This document shows, in pieces, positions 1,679 through 14,376 of a stretch of 64,000 bases of DNA. The notes under the pieces were generated by a model that had not been told where the DNA came from, searched no databases, and saw only the letters and a program-made list of their open reading frames with translations. The stretch is from a methane-oxidizing endosymbiont of Gigantopelta aegis. GTDB taxonomy: Bacteria; Pseudomonadota; Gammaproteobacteria; Methylococcales; Methylomonadaceae. The translations under genes were made by a program, and so were the position numbers. Positions within the stretch are counted from its first letter, which is position 1; each line of letters opens with the position of its first letter. The DNA is taken from NCBI RefSeq assembly GCF_016097405.1, contig NZ_JAEHGD010000001.1, positions 642,345 to 706,344 on the forward strand. Reading direction: 5' to 3'.

Positions 1679-2758
1679 TTACAGTAAATTCAAGGCATTC
1701 AAGTCTTCAAATGCTTTTACGATCCGTTTTACCATGTTAACCTGGCCGGCACGTTGCCAAACACGTGGATCATAGTATTTCTTATTCGGCGCATCATCAC
1801 CTGTCGGATTACCAATCTGTCCCTGAAGATAGGCTTCATGCTCCTTATAATAATTCATAACACCTTCCCAAGCAGCCCATTGCGTATCCGTATCAATATT
1901 CATTTTGATAACGCCGTAACTGATCGATTCGGCAATTTCTTCCGGTGAAGAACCTGAACCACCATGGAATACAAAATTCAAGGTATTTTCTGGCACACCA
2001 TATTTTTCAGAGACGAATTTTTGTGAGTCTCGTAAAATAGTCGGTGTCAATTTAACATTACCTGGTTTGTAAACGCCATGAACATTCCCAAAAGATGCGG
2101 CAATGGTAAAACGATGACTCACTTTGCTTAACTCTTCATAGGCGTAAGCGACTTCCTCAGGCTGCGTATATAACATGGATTGATCCATATCGCTGTTATC
2201 AACGCCATCTTCTTCACCACCGGTACAACCTAATTCAATCTCCAACGTCATGTCCATTTTCGACATGCGCTCCAGATATTTTGCGCAGATTTCGATATTT
2301 TCTTCCAAACTTTCTTCTGAAAGATCAATCATATGAGAACTGAATAATGGACGGCCTGTCTGCGCAAAGTGCTTTTCACCCGCATCGAGCAGACCATCAA
2401 TCCATGGCAGCAATTTTTTTGCACAGTGATCAGTATGTAAAATAACCGGCACACCATAATGTTCAGCCAGATTATGAACATGTAATGCAGCAGAAATAGC
2501 ACCTAATACTGAATTACGCTGACCTTCAGCAGGCAATCCTTTACCGGCATAAAAAGCGGCACCCCCGTTTGAACACTGAATAAAAACAGGTGAATTTGCC
2601 TGGGCTGCCGCTTCTAATACCGCATTGATAGTATCTGAGCTGATGATATTGACCGCAGGTAATGCACTCTTATTTTGCTTACAGTATTCGAAAATCTTTT
2701 GTACATCATCACCCGTAACTACACCGGGTTTAACAATTTCAGATAATTTTTGTGTCAT
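1679..2758 (-). CDS. fba: Fructose-bisphosphate aldolase class II
   Basis: This zinc-dependent aldolase condenses or cleaves fructose 1,6-bisphosphate with dihydroxyacetone phosphate and glyceraldehyde 3-phosphate. The catalytic and metal site HTDHCAK is at residues 108-114 (Asp110 and His111 by analogy to E. coli FbaA), and a glycine-rich FHGGSGSS phosphate loop lies near residue 265. Starting at the ATG at 2758 gives 359 residues, the same as E. coli FbaA; a start ten codons earlier lacks a better ribosome site. Its place between tal and fbp fits the cleavage and regeneration branch of the RuMP cycle. Confidence 0.96.
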   Translation of the reverse strand: MTQKLSEIVKPGVVTGDDVQKIFEYCKQNKSALPAVNIISSDTINAVLEAAAQANSPVFIQCSNGGAAFYAGKGLPAEGQRNSVLGAISAALHVHNLAEHYGVPVILHTDHCAKKLLPWIDGLLDAGEKHFAQTGRPLFSSHMIDLSEESLEENIEICAKYLERMSKMDMTLEIELGCTGGEEDGVDNSDMDQSMLYTQPEEVAYAYEELSKVSHRFTIAASFGNVHGVYKPGNVKLTPTILRDSQKFVSEKYGVPENTLNFVFHGGSGSSPEEIAESISYGVIKMNIDTDTQWAAWEGVMNYYKEHEAYLQGQIGNPTGDDAPNKKYYDPRVWQRAGQVNMVKRIVKAFEDLNALNLL

Positions 2759-2855
2759 TTTTTGAAATATCCTGATAGAAATAGCCACACCGTATCATCA
2801 GGATACGATGTGGCATAGGGATCATCTCTTAACAAAGAAAGTGATTTTTGTGGTT

Positions 2856-3842
2856 TTAAGCTTCTATTTCAGCTAATCGGTCAGCCAATAATTTTTCCAG
2901 CGTTTCTAATGCTTTTGAAAACCCTTCAATACCTTCTGATAATTTGTCAGATGCCATACGGTTTTCTTCATGCATTTTATCGAAAGTGGCTTTATCGATT
3001 GACAGCTTTTCAATATCCATAGTAGCTGCTTTAGCTGGATCTAGTTTTCTTTCCAATACGCCTTCAGTTGATTTCAACTCAGCTAATAATGCTGGTGCAA
3101 TTGTCAATAGATCACAGCCGGCTAATTCTGTAATTTCGCCGATATTACGGAAGCTAGCCCCCATAACCTCAGTTTTGTAACCGAATTTTTTGTAGTAGTT
3201 GTAAATCGTAGTCACTGAAACAACACCTGGGTCTTCTGCAGGTGGATATGAATCACGGCCGGTTTCTTTCTTATACCAGTCTAAGATACGACCTACAAAC
3301 GGAGAAATCAGGGTAATACCACCTTCAGCACAGGCAACAGCTTGATGCAAACCGAACAACAATGTCAAGTTACAATGGATGCCTTCTTTTTCCAAGACTT
3401 CGGCAGCTTTAATGCCTTCCCAGGTTGCCGCAATTTTAATCAGAATTCTATCCTTTGAAATGCCTGCTTTTTCATACTGGGCGATGATATCACGACCTTT
3501 TTGAATCGTGCCTTCGGTATCATATGACAATCTCGCATCAACTTCTGTTGAAACACGACCCGGAATAATTTCAAGGATTTTTAAGCCAAAAGAAACAGCC
3601 AATTTTTCAAAGGCTAATGAAGCTACTTCTTCAGCGGATGCGCTCGCACCTAATTCTTCTCTCGCCGATTTCAATGTATCATCAACAATACCTTGATATT
3701 GTGGCATTTGCGCGGCAGCCGTAATCAAAGACGGATTTGTCGTTGCATCACGTGGCTTAAATGTTTCTATTGCTTCAATATCACCTGTATCTGCAACAAC
3801 TACAGTCATTTCACTCAGTTGTTCAAGTAAGTTCTTTGCCAT
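2856..3842 (-). CDS. tal: Transaldolase
   Basis: Transaldolase moves a dihydroxyacetone unit between sugar phosphates in the regeneration part of the RuMP cycle. The DATTNPS signature is at residues 32-38 and the Schiff-base lysine is Lys136 in [12 protein letters not shown]. The 328 residues match the long TalB-type family (E. coli TalB has 317). It ends 97 bp upstream of fba in the same direction, and the KYL-1 repeat-protein gene lies between it and transketolase. A short C-terminal tail (about residues 318-328, rich in Leu, Ala and Glu) extends past the usual family end. Confidence 0.95.
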
Positions 3843-4138: not shown

Positions 4139-4852
4139 TTAGCCTTTCTTTTTGCGCAGGTATTTCTCAACACCCGTTGCATTTTCTTCAGCCAACTTAC
4201 GTGTACGAACAACCTGCTTTGCCAGATATTTTGCAACACCTGTTGTCGGCAAAGATTGTTGTTTTTTCGCTAAATATTTAGAAACACGGGTTTCTTTAGG
4301 TTGCTTTTTAGCTAAATATCTTTCAACACGAGTTACACCTTCTGCGGCTTCAGTGCTCGCTCTAGGCGCTGGTCTTGAAGCTCGCGCACGAGGTGCTGAT
4401 GAAGGCGTTGATGGCGCACCTGCTTTTTTTCGATAAAAAAAGAAACCTGCAACAGCCAATGCCACAACAGCAATCAGCATCGTTTGATCTGAGCTTTCTT
4501 CTTTTGTCGCTACTGTACTTGTCGAATCTGATGAAGACTCTACAGAAGATGAAGAAGAAGTCGATCGTGTAGAAACGGATTCTATTTTATCGGCTTTATG
4601 TTTATATCCTGGATCTTGATAAACCACTTTAGGCTTAAAAGCCGCTGCTGGATAATTCGGGTCAGGTTCTGTTTGACCTGAAGAAAATGATGATGCTGTT
4701 GACTCAGAATGTTTATAATCCGAATCACTATATAAAACCTTAGGTTGAAAATCCGCTGCGGGATATTCATCTGATGTTGCCTGAGCCATTAAAGGACTCA
4801 CTAACAACATAGCTGCTAATGTGCCTTTTGTAAGAAATAAGTTTTTCACCAT
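4139..4852 (-). CDS. KYL-1: membrane-anchored protein with T[RG]VxKYLAKK repeats
   Basis: I do not recognise a named family. Visible order: signal peptide (about residues 1-26, hydrophobic core then M-A-Q-A-T); two copies of a motif near Y-P-A-A-x-F-x-P-K-V-x-Y-x-D-x-x-Y-K-H (about residues 30-50 and 67-88); a Ser/Thr-rich linker; one membrane helix (MLIAVVALAVAGFFFYRKK, about 128-146); then a basic tail with four repeats: TRVERYLAKK, TRVSKYLAKK, TGVAKYLAKQ and TGVEKYLRKK. Topology would put the N-part in the periplasm and the KYL repeats in the cytoplasm. The ATG at 4852 is chosen because AGGT lies four bases upstream; a GTG two codons earlier overlaps that site. It lies between tkt and tal, so it is probably co-expressed with RuMP enzymes. 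Function is unknown; a scaffold or enzyme-tethering role is inference. Confidence 0.85.
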   Translation of the reverse strand: MVKNLFLTKGTLAAMLLVSPLMAQATSDEYPAADFQPKVLYSDSDYKHSESTASSFSSGQTEPDPNYPAAAFKPKVVYQDPGYKHKADKIESVSTRSTSSSSSVESSSDSTSTVATKEESSDQTMLIAVVALAVAGFFFYRKKAGAPSTPSSAPRARASRPAPRASTEAAEGVTRVERYLAKKQPKETRVSKYLAKKQQSLPTTGVAKYLAKQVVRTRKLAEENATGVEKYLRKKKG

Positions 4853-4952
4853 ATTCACCTATATGTTGTTAACGAGAGACTACTAACACTTCAGGTATTA
4901 ATAGTCTCGCCGCTAATGGAATGCGTTAATACGTTTTTGTATTTGCTGTCAT

Positions 4953-6938
4953 TTATAAAACATCTTTCACATGTTTTACCACATTCTCAACGGTAAAGCC
5001 AAAATGTTCCATAACAACCGCACCTGGTGCAGATTCACCAAAGGTATCAATACCTACGACACCACCATCTAAACCAACATACTTATACCAGTAATCAGTC
5101 ACACCGGCTTCAACCGCAACACGCTTAACACCTGGAATTAAAATACTATCTTTATAAGCTTGATCCTGACGATCAAAAACACTCGTTGATGGCATAGAAA
5201 CAACACGTGCATTAACACCATCGGAAGCTAACGCCTCTTTTGCTTTAATAGCCAAATTGACCTCAGAGCCAGTGGCAATAATAATCACATCTGGTGTGCC
5301 ATTCGCTTCAGAAATCACATAAGCACCTTTACGAATAGCCGCAATTTGCTCATCGGTTCTTTCAATAAAAGGAACGCCCTGACGTGTCAATACCAAGCTA
5401 GTAGGACCAGTCATACGCTCAACCGCCATAACCCAGGAAACAGCTGTTTCAGTCGTATCTGCAGGACGCCAGACATCCATATTTGGAATCAAACGCATTG
5501 CTGCTGTGTTTTCAATAGGTTGATGCGTTGGACCATCTTCACCCTGACCAATGGAATCATGTGTCAATACAGCAATTGTGCGGATTTTCATCAATGCCGC
5601 CATCCGTAATGCACTTTTCGCATAATCGGAGAACATATGGAATGTACCGCCATAAGGCAGTAAACCACCATGTAAAGCCATTCCATTCATAATGGCGAAC
5701 ATACCAAACTCACGCACACCATAAGAGATGTAGTTACCTGGTTTTTTCCCATCAACATGTGTGAAGCTATCACAACTTGTCAAATTAGAGCCTGTCAAGT
5801 CAGCCGAGCCACCGATGAACTCAGGCAATGTCGGTGCTAATGCGGCAATGCATTTTTGTGATGCTTGACGTGTCGCCAAGCTCTCTTTCTTAGCATTCAT
5901 ATCGGCAATCAAGTTCGCCGCAGCCTGTTCCCAATCATTCGGAAGATCACCTGCCATACGACGTTTGAATTCTGCCGCTAACTCAGGATACTCTTTTTCA
6001 TAGGCAGCGAATTTTTCATTCCACTCACCTTCAACCTTAGCGCCTTTAACCGTTGCATCCCAACCTTCATAAACATCTTCAGGGATTTCAAAAGGCTCGT
6101 ACTCCCAGCCTAACTCTTTGCGCGTCAGCGCAACTTCTTCTTCACCTAAAGCCGCACCATGACAGTCATGGCTACCTGATTTGTTAGGTGATCCAAACCC
6201 AATAATCGTTTTACAACAAATCAGTGATGGCTTATCGGTTACTTTTTTGGATTCTTCGATAGCCGCGTTGATTGCTTCAGGGTCATGTCCATCGACAGAC
6301 ACAACATGCCAGTTATAGGCTTCGAAGCGTTTGACAGTATCATCTGTATACCAAGCATCGATATGTCCATCAATAGAAATATTGTTATCATCCCAAAATG
6401 CAATCAGTTTTCCCAATCCCCAGGTTCCGGCCAAAGAACAGGCTTCATGTGAAATACCTTCCATTAAACATCCATCGCCCATGAATACATAGGTGTAATG
6501 ATCGACGATTTCATGCCCTGGTTTGTTGAATTGATGTGCCATCAACTTTTCAGCCATCGCGAAACCAACGCCATTTGCAATCCCTTGACCTAAAGGACCT
6601 GTAGTCGTTTCAATACCAGGCGCATAGCCATATTCAGGATGACCGGCACATTGCGAGTGCAACTGACGGAATGATTTCAACTGATCCATTGGCAGGTCGT
6701 AGCCCGTCAAATGCAACAATGAATAAAGTAACATCGAGCCATGACCGTTTGACAAAATAAACCGATCACGATCTGCCCATTTTGGATCTTTCGGATTATG
6801 TTTTAAGTGATCATTCCATAAAACTTCAGCAATATCCGCCATTCCCATAGGTGCGCCAGGGTGGCCTGATTTTGCTTTTTGAACTGCATCCATGGTTAAA
6901 GCACGGATTGCATTTGCTAATTTACGACGCGAAGCCAT
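4953..6938 (-). CDS. tkt: Transketolase
   Basis: Thiamine-diphosphate enzyme transferring two-carbon ketol units, needed to regenerate ribulose 5-phosphate as formaldehyde acceptor. The ThDP/Mg motif begins with GDG at residues 154-156 and ends with NN at 185-186. The N-terminal [11 protein letters not shown] loop, S-N-G-H-G-S and the pyrimidine-domain G-V-R-E-F-G-M segment are present. Length is 661 residues against 663 in E. coli TktA. AGGAG sits nine bases before the ATG. It is downstream of phi (117 bp) and upstream of KYL-1 (100 bp), all in one direction. Confidence 0.97.
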
Positions 6939-7055
6939 ACGGTTCTACTCCTATATATTTTTTTGCAAACAGCAATGCTGTTTGTTTTTATAAATTTGAT
7001 AAATCAAGCGCAGGCGGCCGCCGATGCATGTTCAATGCACCGACAGCCATACTAA

Positions 7056-7601
7056 TCATTCCATATTAGCGTGTCTTTCTCTCATTTTTTCTTCCGGGAT
7101 ACCTTTTTCCCAGATCATATGCGCTACGATAGCCTCAAGAAAACACAGTGTTGAGAGTTCAAAAACTGTTCCCATTGGCATGCCTTTGACTTTTTCGTAA
7201 AGCTCCTCTTTCCCAATCTGGAAAACAGCATCGGCTAAATCGCCTATTGTTGATTCTTTTCTTGAGCAAATCAAAACGACTTTAGCGCCCACTGACTTAG
7301 CTTTCTTGGCAAATGATATCAGTTGCTCTGTCTCACCTGAACCTGAAATCACAATTAACAGATCACCGGCTTGAATACTTGGCGTAACAATTTCACCAAC
7401 CATATAGACAGTGTATCCGCTATGCATCAAACGCATACCCAGAAAATTCCCGACTAATTTTGAACGCCCAGCGCCAGAAATAAAAATCCGGTTGGCTTCA
7501 TCGAACATCTTCACTAACTTGTCATGATAAGACTCATCAGTTGCATCCAGAATTTCAGAAATTTTATTAATAACTAATTTTTGATTCTCTTTTTGCCACA
7601 T
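7056..7601 (-). CDS. hxlB: 6-phospho-3-hexuloisomerase (SIS domain)
   Basis: This isomerase turns hexulose 6-phosphate into fructose 6-phosphate, the second step of formaldehyde fixation. The 181-residue protein is a single SIS domain with the sugar-phosphate loop ISGAGRSK at residues 41-48 and the ISGSGETEQ loop at 85-93, both characteristic of the PHI family. Its start lies three bases after the hps stop, so the two genes should be translationally coupled. This is the only phi copy in the window although hps occurs twice. Often called phi or rmpB in methylotrophs. Confidence 0.96.
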   Translation of the reverse strand: MWQKENQKLVINKISEILDATDESYHDKLVKMFDEANRIFISGAGRSKLVGNFLGMRLMHSGYTVYMVGEIVTPSIQAGDLLIVISGSGETEQLISFAKKAKSVGAKVVLICSRKESTIGDLADAVFQIGKEELYEKVKGMPMGTVFELSTLCFLEAIVAHMIWEKGIPEEKMRERHANME

Positions 7602-7604
7602 CGC

Positions 7605-8252
7605 TTACACTCCTGCAGCATCAACCAATTCACGAATTTCACGCGCAGACTCAGCTGGAGAAGGTGCACCATAAATAGCCGCACCAACAACGATGATATC
7701 AGCGCCTGCTTCAACAACTTGTTGAACTGTGGCTTGTTTGATACCGCCCGCAACTGAAATACGAACATCCAGACCTAAACTGGCAATAGTTTGTAAATCA
7801 CCAAATGGGGTTTGGCCAGCCGCCTGTGCATCTAATCCAGTATGAACACCGACAATCTGTGCGCCTGCCGCCGCGCCTTCTCTTGCACATTCTGCAATAT
7901 CAGGCACATTGATCAAGTCAATCTGAACTTCTGCATTATGTGCTTTCGCCGCTTTGATAACACCACTAATAGTCGCCATACCAGAAACGCCCAGTACCGT
8001 ACAAATATCAGCGCCTGCTGCATAGAAAGGTGTTGCTTCGTATTCACCCGCATCCATCGTTTTTAAGTCAACTAATAACAGATGCTCTGGAAAACGTGCT
8101 CTTAATTCTTCAACCAGCTTAATACCATTGTATTTAATGCAAGGCGTACCAATTTCGAATATATCGACATAAGGTGCAACTTGTTCAGCCAAGGCGACCG
8201 TTGCATCAAAATCCAGTGAATCTAAAGCCATTTGAATTAATGGTGTTGCCAT
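7605..8252 (-). CDS. hxlA: 3-hexulose-6-phosphate synthase (copy 1)
   Basis: Aldol-condenses formaldehyde with ribulose 5-phosphate, the entry reaction of the RuMP cycle. The 215-residue barrel belongs to the orotidine-decarboxylase suprafamily: the D-x-K-x-x-D active-site signature is Asp62, Lys64, Asp67 in LLVDLKTMDAG. Phosphate-binding glycine loops V-A-G-G-I and V-V-G-A-A-I are near the C-terminus. A strong promoter (8307-8340) lies about 55 bases upstream. A second copy at 10045-10691 is almost identical at base level, while flanks differ within about 15 bases of each end, which points to gene conversion. Confidence 0.97.
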   Translation of the reverse strand: MATPLIQMALDSLDFDATVALAEQVAPYVDIFEIGTPCIKYNGIKLVEELRARFPEHLLLVDLKTMDAGEYEATPFYAAGADICTVLGVSGMATISGVIKAAKAHNAEVQIDLINVPDIAECAREGAAAGAQIVGVHTGLDAQAAGQTPFGDLQTIASLGLDVRISVAGGIKQATVQQVVEAGADIIVVGAAIYGAPSPAESAREIRELVDAAGV

Positions 8253-8561
8253 ATTATATGCTCCGTTAAGTTATAAATTTTTGTTTCAGACTTATTTCGA
8301 TGGGGAACTTTAAAACAGAAAAGGTCAAAATGTCAATTTTATCAAACTAATGTTTTAGTTGATGAAATGGCTAATTTTGAACATCTTTTTGCTTTTTGTC
8401 GCATTTTAATGTCGTTTTTAGACACACCCCATTCTCATAATCTTATCTTCTAGTTATTATGTGTTTCAACAACCTCATTCCCTGTTGCAAAACACCAACA
8501 GTTTTATCATTTTGCCGTTCTCTCCATACTACAAACATCACCTTTTTAACAGATGTAAAAC
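8253..8561. other. Gene-free region upstream of hps copy 1
   Basis: About 310 bp of AT-rich sequence between the hps start and the KYL-2 stop codon. It holds the hps promoter (8307-8340). I see no ORF or terminator hairpin in the rest. Confidence 0.6.
8307..8340 (-). promoter_or_regulatory. Promoter of hps copy 1
   Basis: On the minus strand AAATTGACATT (perfect -35 TTGACA at 8336-8331) is followed, 15-17 bases on, by CTGTTTTAAAGTT. The same block arrangement precedes hps copy 2 at 10749-10782, with the in-between bases different, so the two blocks are conserved elements rather than part of the duplicated gene body. The downstream element departs from TATAAT, so an extended or regulated -10 is possible. 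Confidence 0.65.
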
Positions 8562-9918
8562 TTAAGCAGCCTTCTTTTTATTTAAATATTTTTCCACACC
8601 CGTAAGGTTATCGTATTTTTAACAGCATCTTCCGCAGCCTTTTTCGCTAAATACGCCTCAACCCTAGAAGCCTTGTTTGACTCTTGAGGTGCATTTTCAG
8701 CTTTTTGGCCAGATATTGTTCAACTTTAGTGCTTCCATTCACATTATCATTTTCAACATCTGCATTTTCAGAGGTCACTTCATGCACCTGCGAAACACTT
8801 TTATCTTTTCTGGCCTGGCTTTTCAAGATAGACAGCTTTAACAGATACTTCGAAACACTACTTATTTTTGAGCGCTGTTTTCCCAGCGTTTCTTTCCGGA
8901 CCAGATACTTATCAACTCCGGTATTGTGCTCTTCAGCCGGTTTTGATAACGACCGCATAACAACATATTTTTCTACTCGAGTCAGTAGTGGTTTAGGCAA
9001 ACTTGCTTTCTTCAACAGATATTTATCAACCCCTGTTCTACCCTCAGTGCTCGACAGCGTTCTTTTTTCGCTATATATTTAGTAACACCTGTCGCAACAT
9101 GTTTTTTCTCAGACTCGGCCCGCGCTAAATATTTAGCAACGCCGGTTGCCGATGGATCAAACACTGGCTCATCCTGTGGAACATCTTCAACTTTTTAGGC
9201 TGCTTTGCCACTTCAGCCTCAGCAAGCCTGTATTTTTCTACCAAAGCTTCTGCAGCCTGTTTTTTTAAGGCTATTTCCTTTTGCCATAAAAAATAGCCTA
9301 CTCGTGTTTCAGGTATTCTCGCTTTAGCCTCTTTATCCTTTTTACGCAAATACAATGCAACGCCTGTCGGAATATTTTTGGTTTCAAACTTTGCTTAACA
9401 ACGTATTGCTCAACCCGGCTAACCCCTGGCTTTTCCTTTTTTAAAACACTCTGCTTCATAATGTATTTAGAAACACGCGTTGTAGTGGGCTTATCCGATA
9501 AAATACGCTTTGCCACATATTTTGCCACCCCGTTGCAGGGTTATGGGGATGCTTTTTAAATATTTTTCGACTCGGGTTACCGCAGATTTGCTTTCAAGGT
9601 ACTTTTCCACACCCGTTCTACACGATACCTCTTCTACTGCTTCAGATTCTTGACTGCCTACTGCATTGTCATCAAAAGATAATTTTGGCAACACCCCAAT
9701 CAAGCCTTTTATAAAACTATTTTTTTTTTCACCTGTAACTCCTTTGTCTTTTCCACATTCTCGAACACCACTAAATCAATACATTGCCCATCCGTTGTAT
9801 CAATTTCAGCCAACCTTATCGACCCGGTTATGTTAGAACAATTATGACAGAAGTTGCGCACTTCATGCGCTCGCTTATCCCCTTGAATTCCGGACAGCCT
9901 GGATATAACGCCTGTCAA
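8562..9918 (-). pseudogene. KYL-2: long KYL-repeat protein, frame broken at eight homopolymers
   Basis: I do not recognise a named family. Fragments in all three minus frames carry the same short repeat as KYL-1. Adding one base at each of eight runs (T-runs at 9710-9719, 9553-9557, 9375-9379, 9192-9196, 9063-9068, 8702-8706, 8616-8620 and the C-run at 9528-9531) gives one frame of exactly 455 codons from a TTG at 9918 to TAA at 8562-8564. The N-terminal 100 residues have no repeat, no signal peptide, and a C-H-N-C pair; then follow about 16 repeats, for example TGVEKYLESK, TRVEKYLKSI, TRVSKYIMKQ, TGVTKYIAKK, TGVDKYLLKK, TGVDKYLVRK, TKVEQYLAKK and SRVEAYLAKK, ending TGVEKYLNKK. Linkers of 8-25 residues are polar or charged. 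It lies between the two hps genes. Either a decayed gene or an intact gene with sequencing errors; the exact start is uncertain. Confidence 0.75.
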
Positions 9919-10044: not shown

Positions 10045-10691
10045 TTATACTGCCGCTGCATCAACCAATTCACGAATTTCACGCGCAGACTCAGCTGGAG
10101 ACGGTGCACCATAAATAGCCGCACCAACAACGATGATATCAGCGCCTGCTTCAACAACTTGTTGAACTGTGGCTTGTTTGATACCGCCCGCAACTGAAAT
10201 ACGAACATCCAGACCTAAACTGGCAATAGTTTGTAAATCACCAAATGGGGTTTGGCCAGCCGCCTGTGCATCTAATCCAGTATGAACACCGACAATCTGT
10301 GCGCCTGCCGCCGCGCCTTCTCTTGCACATTCTGCAATATCAGGCACATTGATCAAGTCAATCTGAACTTCTGCATTATGTGCTTTCGCCGCTTTGATAA
10401 CACCACTAATAGTCGCCATACCAGAAACGCCCAGTACCGTACAAATATCAGCGCCTGCTGCATAGAAAGGTGTTGCTTCGTATTCACCCGCATCCATCGT
10501 TTTAAGTCAACTAATAACAGATGCTCTGGAAAACGTGCTCTTAATTCTTCAACCAGCTTAATACCATTGTATTTAATGCAAGGCGTACCAATTTCGAATA
10601 TATCGACATAAGGTGCAACCTGTTCAGCCAAGGCGACCGTTGCATCAAAATCCAGTGAATCTAAAGCCATTTGAATTAATGGTGTTGCCAT
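10045..10691 (-). pseudogene. hxlA: 3-hexulose-6-phosphate synthase copy 2 (single-base frameshift)
   Basis: Nearly identical to copy 1 over the whole coding region, but the run after codon 63 has four T on the plus strand (around 10500-10503) instead of five, so the frame breaks just at the catalytic Lys64-Asp67 segment, giving fragments of 112 and 150 codons. Restoring one T gives a 215-residue protein differing from copy 1 chiefly at the C-terminus (DAAAV against DAAGV). It has its own matched promoter but no phi gene behind it. Because the difference is one base in a homopolymer inside a near-perfect duplicate, a sequencing or polishing error is as likely as true inactivation. Confidence 0.8.
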
Positions 10692-13800: not shown

Positions 13801-14079
13801 ATGATACAGAGCTTTAAGCACAAGGGGCTGGAGTTATTTTTCAAAACAGGGAGAAAATCCGGCATTCAAGCCAAGCATTCTAAACGGATTCGACTCATTC
13901 TCGGCCGCCTGAATGCTGCCATATCACCTGACGACATGAACTTACCGGGCCTGTATCTACATCAGCTCTCAGGCAAACGTTCTCAATACTGGTCCGTGAG
14001 AGTTAGCGGCAGATGGCGCATTACATTTCGTTTTAATGGGAGCCATGCCGAAGTTGTTGATTATGAGGACTATCACTGA
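13801..14079 (+). CDS. higB: HigB-family toxin (RelE superfamily mRNA interferase)
   Basis: Ninety-two residues beginning MIQSFKHKGLELFFKTG, the usual N-terminus of the plasmid-maintenance killer / HigB group, with the conserved basic region YWSVRVSGRWRITFRF near residues 64-79, where the Arg residues correspond to the catalytic part of the RelE fold. Such toxins cleave mRNA on the ribosome. The toxin-first order followed by an XRE antitoxin is diagnostic of higBA. There is no ribosome-binding site, and the promoter places the transcript start at or next to the ATG, so the message may be leaderless. Confidence 0.92.
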   Translation: MIQSFKHKGLELFFKTGRKSGIQAKHSKRIRLILGRLNAAISPDDMNLPGLYLHQLSGKRSQYWSVRVSGRWRITFRFNGSHAEVVDYEDYH

Positions 14080-14088
14080 GGTTACACC

Positions 14089-14376
14089 ATGTTAATGCAT
14101 AATCCGCCACACCCAGGCGAAGTATTAAAAGAACTTTGTATTGAGCCTCTTGGCCTAACTGTTACCGATGCTGCAAAGGCTCTAGGCGTCAGTCGCAAGA
14201 CCTTATCGGCGATTCTTAATGGTAAATCTGGTATCAGCCCAGAAATGGCTGTGCGCTTATCCATTGCATTCAATACATCATCTGAGAGCTGGTTAAACCA
14301 ACAAACACAATATGACTTATGGCAAGCAGAGCAGCACCGTAAAAAACTTCATGTTCAGCAGCTGTCTACAGTATAA
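14089..14376 (+). CDS. higA: HigA-family antitoxin (XRE helix-turn-helix)
   Basis: Ninety-five residues starting nine bases after higB, with GAGGTT upstream of the ATG. The N-terminal H-P-G-E-V-L-K-E motif and a helix-turn-helix around residues 24-55 ([20 protein letters not shown]) are typical of HigA. It should neutralise HigB and repress the operon through the inverted repeat at 13765-13794. Confidence 0.93.

Follow-up and report, generated by a model that had tools for sequence, protein, structure and literature searches.

KYL-repeat proteins of ribulose monophosphate clusters as plausible scaffolds for 3-hexulose-6-phosphate synthase

How formaldehyde travels in methanotrophs from its periplasmic oxidation to the cytoplasmic enzyme that fixes it is, as far as we know, an open question. 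A 64,000-nucleotide stretch from a methane-oxidizing endosymbiont of Gigantopelta aegis (contig NZ_JAEHGD010000001.1, positions 642,345 to 706,344; this whole stretch is hereafter the window) touches on it with a ribulose monophosphate (RuMP) cluster, arranged on the minus strand as hps (broken)–KYL-2–hps–phi–tkt–KYL-1–tal–fba–fbp. Two of its members, KYL-1 and KYL-2, carry multiple copies of a short motif, and the original prediction was that they form a scaffold for formaldehyde-fixing enzymes. What do they do in this cluster? We find that the KYL proteins are a conserved RuMP-cluster family without a match in the family libraries, for which sequence comparison makes a scaffold role plausible, one now aimed at Hps, the 3-hexulose-6-phosphate synthase.

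The reading we favour, to which we give an even chance, is that KYL proteins serve as multivalent docks for Hps, clustering it through KYL-2 and tethering it to the membrane through KYL-1. Each KYL motif would bind a single Hps subunit as a short helix carried on a flexible linker. The many motifs of KYL-2 would then cross-link Hps dimers into clusters, and KYL-1, whose four motifs lie past a membrane helix, would fasten these clusters to the cytoplasmic side of the membrane, close to the place of formaldehyde entry. Linkage and phyletic evidence point to Hps as the best candidate partner, above Phi, Tkt or Tal.

Architecture of the KYL proteins

The two KYL genes and the parts of KYL-1 are placed in the window as follows.

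4139..4858, minus strand: KYL-1, 239 residues, intact frame, start GTG 4858 or ATG 4852
4724..4765, minus strand: YPAA-FxPKVxY repeat 1 of KYL-1, roughly residues 32-45, predicted to be periplasmic; Y32, P33, A34 and P39 invariant in the alignment
4613..4663, minus strand: YPAA-FxPKVxY repeat 2 of KYL-1, roughly residues 66-82; P70, A71, P76 and V78 invariant in the alignment
4424..4498, minus strand: membrane helix predicted for KYL-1 (model residues 121-145), a hydrophobic run LIAVVALAVAGFFFY with RKK after it
4157..4333, minus strand: the four KYL motifs of KYL-1, at 4313-4333, 4271-4291, 4223-4243 and 4157-4177
8562..9771, minus strand: KYL-2 gene, frame broken by eight homopolymer indels; the intact homologue in L006 has 404 residues

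KYL-1 is built as first described: the N-terminus looks signal-like by eye, basic residues come after a single membrane helix, and the KYL motifs number four. Ahead of the helix it also has two YPAA-FxPKVxY repeats, YPAADFQPKVLY and YPAAAFKPKVVY, which were absent from the original prediction. A separate, secreted-looking protein of 98 residues (L002:1474-1770) has three YPAA-FQPKVxY repeats that resemble this N-terminal part.

The repeat core across the family is [TS]-[GSR]-V-x-[KR]-Y-[LIVM]. Its V and Y are invariant in all four repeats of KYL-1 (22 sequences aligned) and at most repeats of KYL-2 (11 sequences aligned), and the T or S with E, D or A three residues later looks like a helix cap. 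Median spacing between motifs is 20 residues in families f1 and f4 and 17 in f10 (f1 to f10 are family labels, f1 being the window's own; f1, f4, f6, f7 and f10 are presumably Methylomonadaceae, Methylococcaceae, Methylothermaceae, Cycloclasticaceae and Methylophagaceae, respectively). Strict motifs number four in KYL-1, 13 in the L006 KYL-2 and five in a third protein, KYL-3, against shuffle means of 0.003, 0.006 and 0.000, respectively; a chance origin of these counts is excluded. A looser V..Y pattern finds 15 motifs in KYL-2, so that its many repeats stand and the earlier figure of about 16 comes down slightly.

Structure models show no globular fold for either protein, with a predicted local distance difference test score (pLDDT) of 53.3 and a predicted template modelling score (pTM) of 0.17 for KYL-1 (two-row alignment), and 50.6 and 0.18 for KYL-2 (single sequence). 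The motifs are helical in both models, at low confidence. KYL-2 types begin with a hydrophobic stretch, and the KYL-2 model has a helix at residues 2-24 (pLDDT about 74). The KYL proteins thus have what a scaffold would need, many copies of one short motif on flexible linkers. The motif regions are also rich in K and R, and a very improbable alternative is that these basic repeats bind nucleic acid or regulate the cluster: the KYL-1 repeats follow a membrane helix, the motif is defined by invariant hydrophobic V, Y and L, and no DNA- or RNA-binding family was matched.

A match to an unrelated known family, which would have counted against the original prediction, has not emerged. The KYL proteins have no significant match in Pfam, NCBIfam or PHROGs, and KYL-2, the only one compared with PDB sequences, has none there. 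With E values up to 0.1 allowed, Pfam offers no family for KYL-2 (L006), two KYL-3 proteins, one f10 KYL protein or one f4 KYL-1, and a single match for KYL-1 (E 0.076) that lies under that family's cut-off. The same library searches found no Hps or HUMPS catalytic domain in KYL proteins. We rejected KYL-1 as an LPXTG-anchored surface protein, the match to TIGR01167 scoring 14.5 bits, below the cut-off of 15.9, and covering residues 123-145 only.

KYL-2 has no open frame in the window, where its motifs are scattered across three frames, and it is nonetheless a real gene: in L006, a contig of a close relative titled 'uncultured Methylococcaceae bacterium', KYL-2 and both hps copies are intact. 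It occupies about 8562-9771, short of the 9918 to which the predicted region had been drawn, and its true start may be a GTG near 9731. Of the eight frame-changing indels relative to L006, seven are losses of one base from an A or G run and the eighth adds two bases to a run of A; a further homopolymer shortening lies in the upstream hps copy. The ratio of non-synonymous to synonymous divergence (dN/dS) between window and L006, with the KYL-2 indel codons excluded, is 0.154 for KYL-2, 0.175 for KYL-1, 0.058 for tal, 0.022 for tkt and 0.007 for hps, and KYL-2 is under purifying selection. Because the indels all fall in homopolymers and purifying selection is visible, we rejected decay of KYL-2 as less likely than sequencing error; judged from the assembled sequence, the breaks are probably errors.

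Linkage to the RuMP genes

The enzymes of the window's cluster, all on the minus strand, are the following.

7605..8252, minus strand: hps, 3-hexulose-6-phosphate synthase, intact copy (TIGR03128, 251.5 bits), the proposed client of the KYL motif
10045..10691, minus strand: second hps copy, frame broken by one A lost near 10503, intact in L006
7056..7601, minus strand: phi, 6-phospho-3-hexuloisomerase (TIGR03127, 201.9 bits)
4953..6938, minus strand: tkt, transketolase (TIGR00232, 994.2 bits)
2856..3842, minus strand: tal, transaldolase (TIGR00874, 485.4 bits)
1679..2788, minus strand: fba, class II fructose-bisphosphate aldolase (NF006628, 605.9 bits)

Twenty f1 regions from 17 genera, chosen from KYL-1 matches, all have the order hps-phi-tkt-KYL1-tal, with hps cut by a contig end in one, and a KYL-2-type frame is present in 17 of them as well. 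The same gene order recurs in f3 and f5, each represented by one genome. In f4 the common arrangement, seen in 12 of 14 regions, instead puts KYL-1 upstream of hps at a distance of no more than about 0.5 kb (its frame is broken in G203 and G218); of the remaining two, G256 has the f1 order and G210 has no RuMP gene within 20 kb. A third arrangement, hps-KYL-tal-hps-phi, is found in all three f10 genomes, which lie outside the order and lack pmoB. The common element of the f1, f4 and f10 arrangements is the link to hps. The tkt beside KYL-1 in f1 is of two types, 65-68% or 79-100% identical to that of the window, and KYL-1 stays beside both. The f10 KYL proteins are 97-187 residues long with no evident membrane helix; therefore tethering is not the shared function, and the predicted membrane tether, which fits the topology of KYL-1, does not extend to them.

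Three further observations concern these loci. In G010 (L066) the block is duplicated, reading KYL2-hps-phi-tkt-KYL2-hps-phi-tkt-KYL1-tal-fba. Synonymous divergence (dS) between window and L006 is 2.56 for phi (7056-7601) and only 0.22-0.32 for KYL-1, KYL-2, tkt, tal and hps, as if phi alone had been exchanged. Elsewhere in the window, two adjacent small frames at 13801-14376 look by eye like a HigB/HigA-type toxin-antitoxin pair.

Phyletic distribution

KYL-1 protein matches were found in 199 of 201 f1 genomes at E up to 0.01, some of them weak. Of 251 genomes sampled from the order, the KYL-1 profile has matches in 218, and hps exceeds its family cut-off in 214. Those lacking a KYL-1 match number 33: a single f1 genome, 84% complete, and 32 others, of which 25 (including all 18 sampled f7 and both f8) have no hps over the cut-off and seven, all f4, carry it. 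Among 369 genomes of the class, the six that match the KYL-2 profile (E up to 1e-4) are the same six that have hps over the cut-off; they represent about two lineages and therefore not six independent events. The phylum sample of 398 genomes includes just one with a KYL match, the genome of the window itself. Repeats confined to hps-bearing genomes, in line with the original expectation, are thus what the class and phylum samples give; the order sample departs from it in 11 of its 218 matching genomes, which have no hps over the cut-off. These are nine f1 drafts, of which the one checked (G030) has hps cut by a contig end, G208, which has the N-terminal module only, and G237. In gene order and in distribution alike, KYL is tied to its proposed client Hps, as a scaffold would be.

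The N-terminal part also occurs by itself. YPAA repeats and a membrane helix without KYL motifs are present in two f6 proteins that were read (ten f6 genomes match) and in G208 of f2, and a short YPAA protein of G236 stops after the membrane helix, with no KYL-1 match beyond the N-terminal part. We considered these two f6 genomes and G208 for a strict tie of the module to particulate methane monooxygenase (pMMO), and rejected it on several pmoB-bearing f4 genomes without any KYL-1 alignment match. One f6 genome, G216 (L146), has a full KYL-1 on a contig resembling that of G202 (f3; L149), with identical KYL proteins; this contig is possibly a contaminant.

These distributions bear on the proposal that the repeats are lipid-binding amphipathic helices by which KYL-1 and KYL-2 shape or coat the intracytoplasmic membrane, the RuMP linkage reflecting shared regulation. 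The membrane helix of KYL-1, the hydrophobic start of KYL-2 types and the basic, predicted helical motifs suit it, but KYL is missing from many pmoB-bearing f7, f8 and f4 genomes and present in the three f10 genomes, which have no pmoB. Invariant V and Y amid a variable remainder resemble a docking motif, and the correlation with Hps would go unexplained; we hold this proposal to be unlikely.

Hps as candidate partner

Among Hps, Phi, Tal and Tkt, Hps is the enzyme that differs most in related KYL-less genomes. Its identity to the window's Hps is 58-70% in the seven KYL-less f4 genomes, compared with 75-78% in KYL-bearing f4 and 74-77% in f10. The other f4 enzymes are alike with and without KYL: 58-66% versus 62-64% for Phi (three KYL-less genomes), 77-86% versus 81% for Tal (two) and 65-66% (intact rows) versus 66% for Tkt (one). 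G236, in which no KYL was seen, has two Hps at 73 and 75% identity, which read K, K, E, K, S at the signature sites described below; therefore identity alone does not separate KYL-bearing from KYL-less genomes.

In the Hps tree, 11 KYL-less rows (six f6 and five f4) fall outside all KYL-bearing rows with support 97/93, and four others sit on a long branch within f4 (placing 87/85). The three rows flagged for long end branches are all KYL-less (0.34, 0.38 and 0.57; median 0.062); long stems of 0.27-0.41 are shared by the remaining KYL-less rows. In the Phi tree, by contrast, three KYL-less genomes fall with KYL-bearing f4, with moderate support: G221 and G227 stand beside Methylococcus-type f4 (84/89) and G247 beside G257 (91/76).

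Five alignment columns distinguish the 54 Hps rows labelled with KYL from the 15 without: L58 (51/54 versus 2/15), A107 (51/54 versus 3/15), E108 (54/54 versus 1/15), R164 (51/54 versus 1/15) and S198 (51/54 versus 3/15). Seven of 76 rows had been dropped, namely a fragment, two G247 duplicates, one fused protein, one unlinked G210 copy and the two from G236, whose KYL status was then unsettled. Six of the 15 KYL-less rows come from f6, where the KYL-1 homologues of G205 and G222 were read and the other four were labelled by analogy. The hps copy beside phi in G650 (f10) has K at 58 despite KYL. Going by the fold of the superfamily, L58, A107/E108 and R164 would lie at the starts of barrel strands. 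As a lead, the five columns are a candidate KYL-docking patch on Hps; they could instead be an internal layer whose residues changed together.

Might the motifs instead serve Tkt, Tal or Phi, or the enzymes of the pathway as a group? The presence of tal near KYL in f1 and f10, and of phi nearby in nearly all loci, would allow it. Against this, two types of Tkt lie beside the same KYL-1 and none was seen in the 15-kb f10 regions, and Phi and Tal are alike in KYL-bearing and KYL-less f4, on few KYL-less rows. We judge another client improbable.

Counter-evidence and other partners

Several observations weigh against Hps docking. The sampled genomes are related, so that their counts are not independent events, and the 11 order genomes with a KYL-1 match and no hps over the cut-off belong here. 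Seven f4 genomes and f6 carry hps with no KYL repeats seen (in f6, two proteins read); therefore Hps does not need KYL. The f10 Hps has a long stem as well (0.33), with KYL present, and f6 Phi falls outside as f6 Hps does. Holding f4 Hps as one clade was not rejected by the approximately unbiased test (p-AU 0.183; the other grouping, 0.076); we therefore claim unusual divergence of Hps, replacement not being proven. The signature also extends to the Hps-Phi fusions that KYL-bearing genomes encode at other loci: all 21 such proteins (one of them cut by a contig end) retain L58, E108 and R164, while A107 is retained in 19 and S198 in 16.

The fusions suit an account in which KYL and a particular Hps clade have travelled together as an operon with no physical contact, as does the f10 Hps, which comes from outside the order and nests among the order's KYL-bearing Hps, consistent with block transfer. 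This account is quite improbable in our estimate, given that the gene orders of f1, f4 and f10 differ and the hps link nevertheless persists, and that Phi of the same clusters lacks the pattern.

The remaining counter-evidence is KYL motifs away from RuMP genes. Besides the KYL-1 of G210, KYL-3 has its five motifs with no RuMP genes nearby, and two f10 genomes have the motif in a large protein, for one of which an Hpt domain was confirmed. The motif can thus work outside RuMP proteins, which argues against Hps as the only partner; the predicted RuMP scaffold gains from the hps linkage and from Hps as best candidate, and the Hpt-protein motifs leave room for another partner. KYL-3 (L003:967-1824; G000 contig C3, about 378-379 kb) has 285 residues and a Cys/His-rich C-terminus, and its relatives in four other f1 genomes have no neighbours in common within 14 kb. 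The Hpt-domain protein of G291 (L158), perhaps a ChpA-like sensor kinase, has six TSVERYIQQQ-type copies; the similar-looking protein of G448 (L159) has three by the expression used and five by eye.

Such proteins would fit a motif that docks on a cell-positioning or chemosensory factor, which would place both RuMP clusters and the Hpt protein, Hps following indirectly. The motif copies in the G291 and G448 proteins and a KYL-3 without RuMP neighbours speak for it. However, a degenerate DNA pattern of the motif has 16 sites in the window's own genome (a reversed control pattern has three), 15 of them in KYL-1, KYL-2 or KYL-3 and one out of frame with the reading frame around it, and the tie to a type of Hps would have no explanation. 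We do not expect this reading to hold.

Discussion

From gene order in Methylococcus-like genomes, the M. capsulatus Bath RuMP operons MCA3040-45 and MCA3046-50 should hold two KYL-1 copies. The parts of a CRISPR interference screen available to us give negative fitness for single-guide RNAs against both operons and do not single out the KYL-1 copies (PMC13108547). The genes of the Methylococcus RuMP repeat are listed, with no KYL-like protein in the accessible portions, in the 2004 genome paper (PMC517821) and a 2021 paper on Methylococcus genomes (PMC8527097). MCA3042 and MCA3048, probable KYL genes by gene order, are not mentioned in the literature searched. The available parts of PMC8879981 and PMC8527097 hold nothing on membrane-bound Hps, and in our search for methanotroph metabolons the word 'metabolon' in the portion of PMC5802761 at hand is a company name.

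The YPAA repeats invite an extension of Hps docking, possible though doubtful, in which they would contact the periplasmic, methanol-oxidising side while the KYL motifs hold Hps and KYL-2 condenses its dimers, giving a membrane-tethered cluster that channels formaldehyde. We know of no comparable formaldehyde-channelling assembly for the RuMP pathway. Hps of Methylococcus is reportedly particulate; if the core cluster does encode an Hps-binding protein anchored in the membrane, that protein would explain it and make channelling testable by single gene deletions. For synthetic methylotrophy, KYL proteins that dock Hps would provide a genetically encoded scaffold.

Among known systems, EPYC1, the Rubisco linker of the algal pyrenoid, is alike in its short helical motifs repeated on disordered linkers, within the pathway it is proposed to serve. 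It differs in enzyme and pathway, no common sequence family was found, and KYL-1 has a membrane helix and a repeat part ahead of it. CsoS2, the alpha-carboxysome scaffold, is likewise a disordered multi-repeat protein encoded beside the enzyme it recruits, whereas KYL has no Pfam match and no shell protein is among the identified cluster genes. Closest to hand are the Hps-Phi fusions of the same genomes, which are covalent and encoded elsewhere (in G249 and G230, at a distance of about 14-15 kb from KYL-1), and which, like the proposed docking, are a means of keeping RuMP enzymes together.

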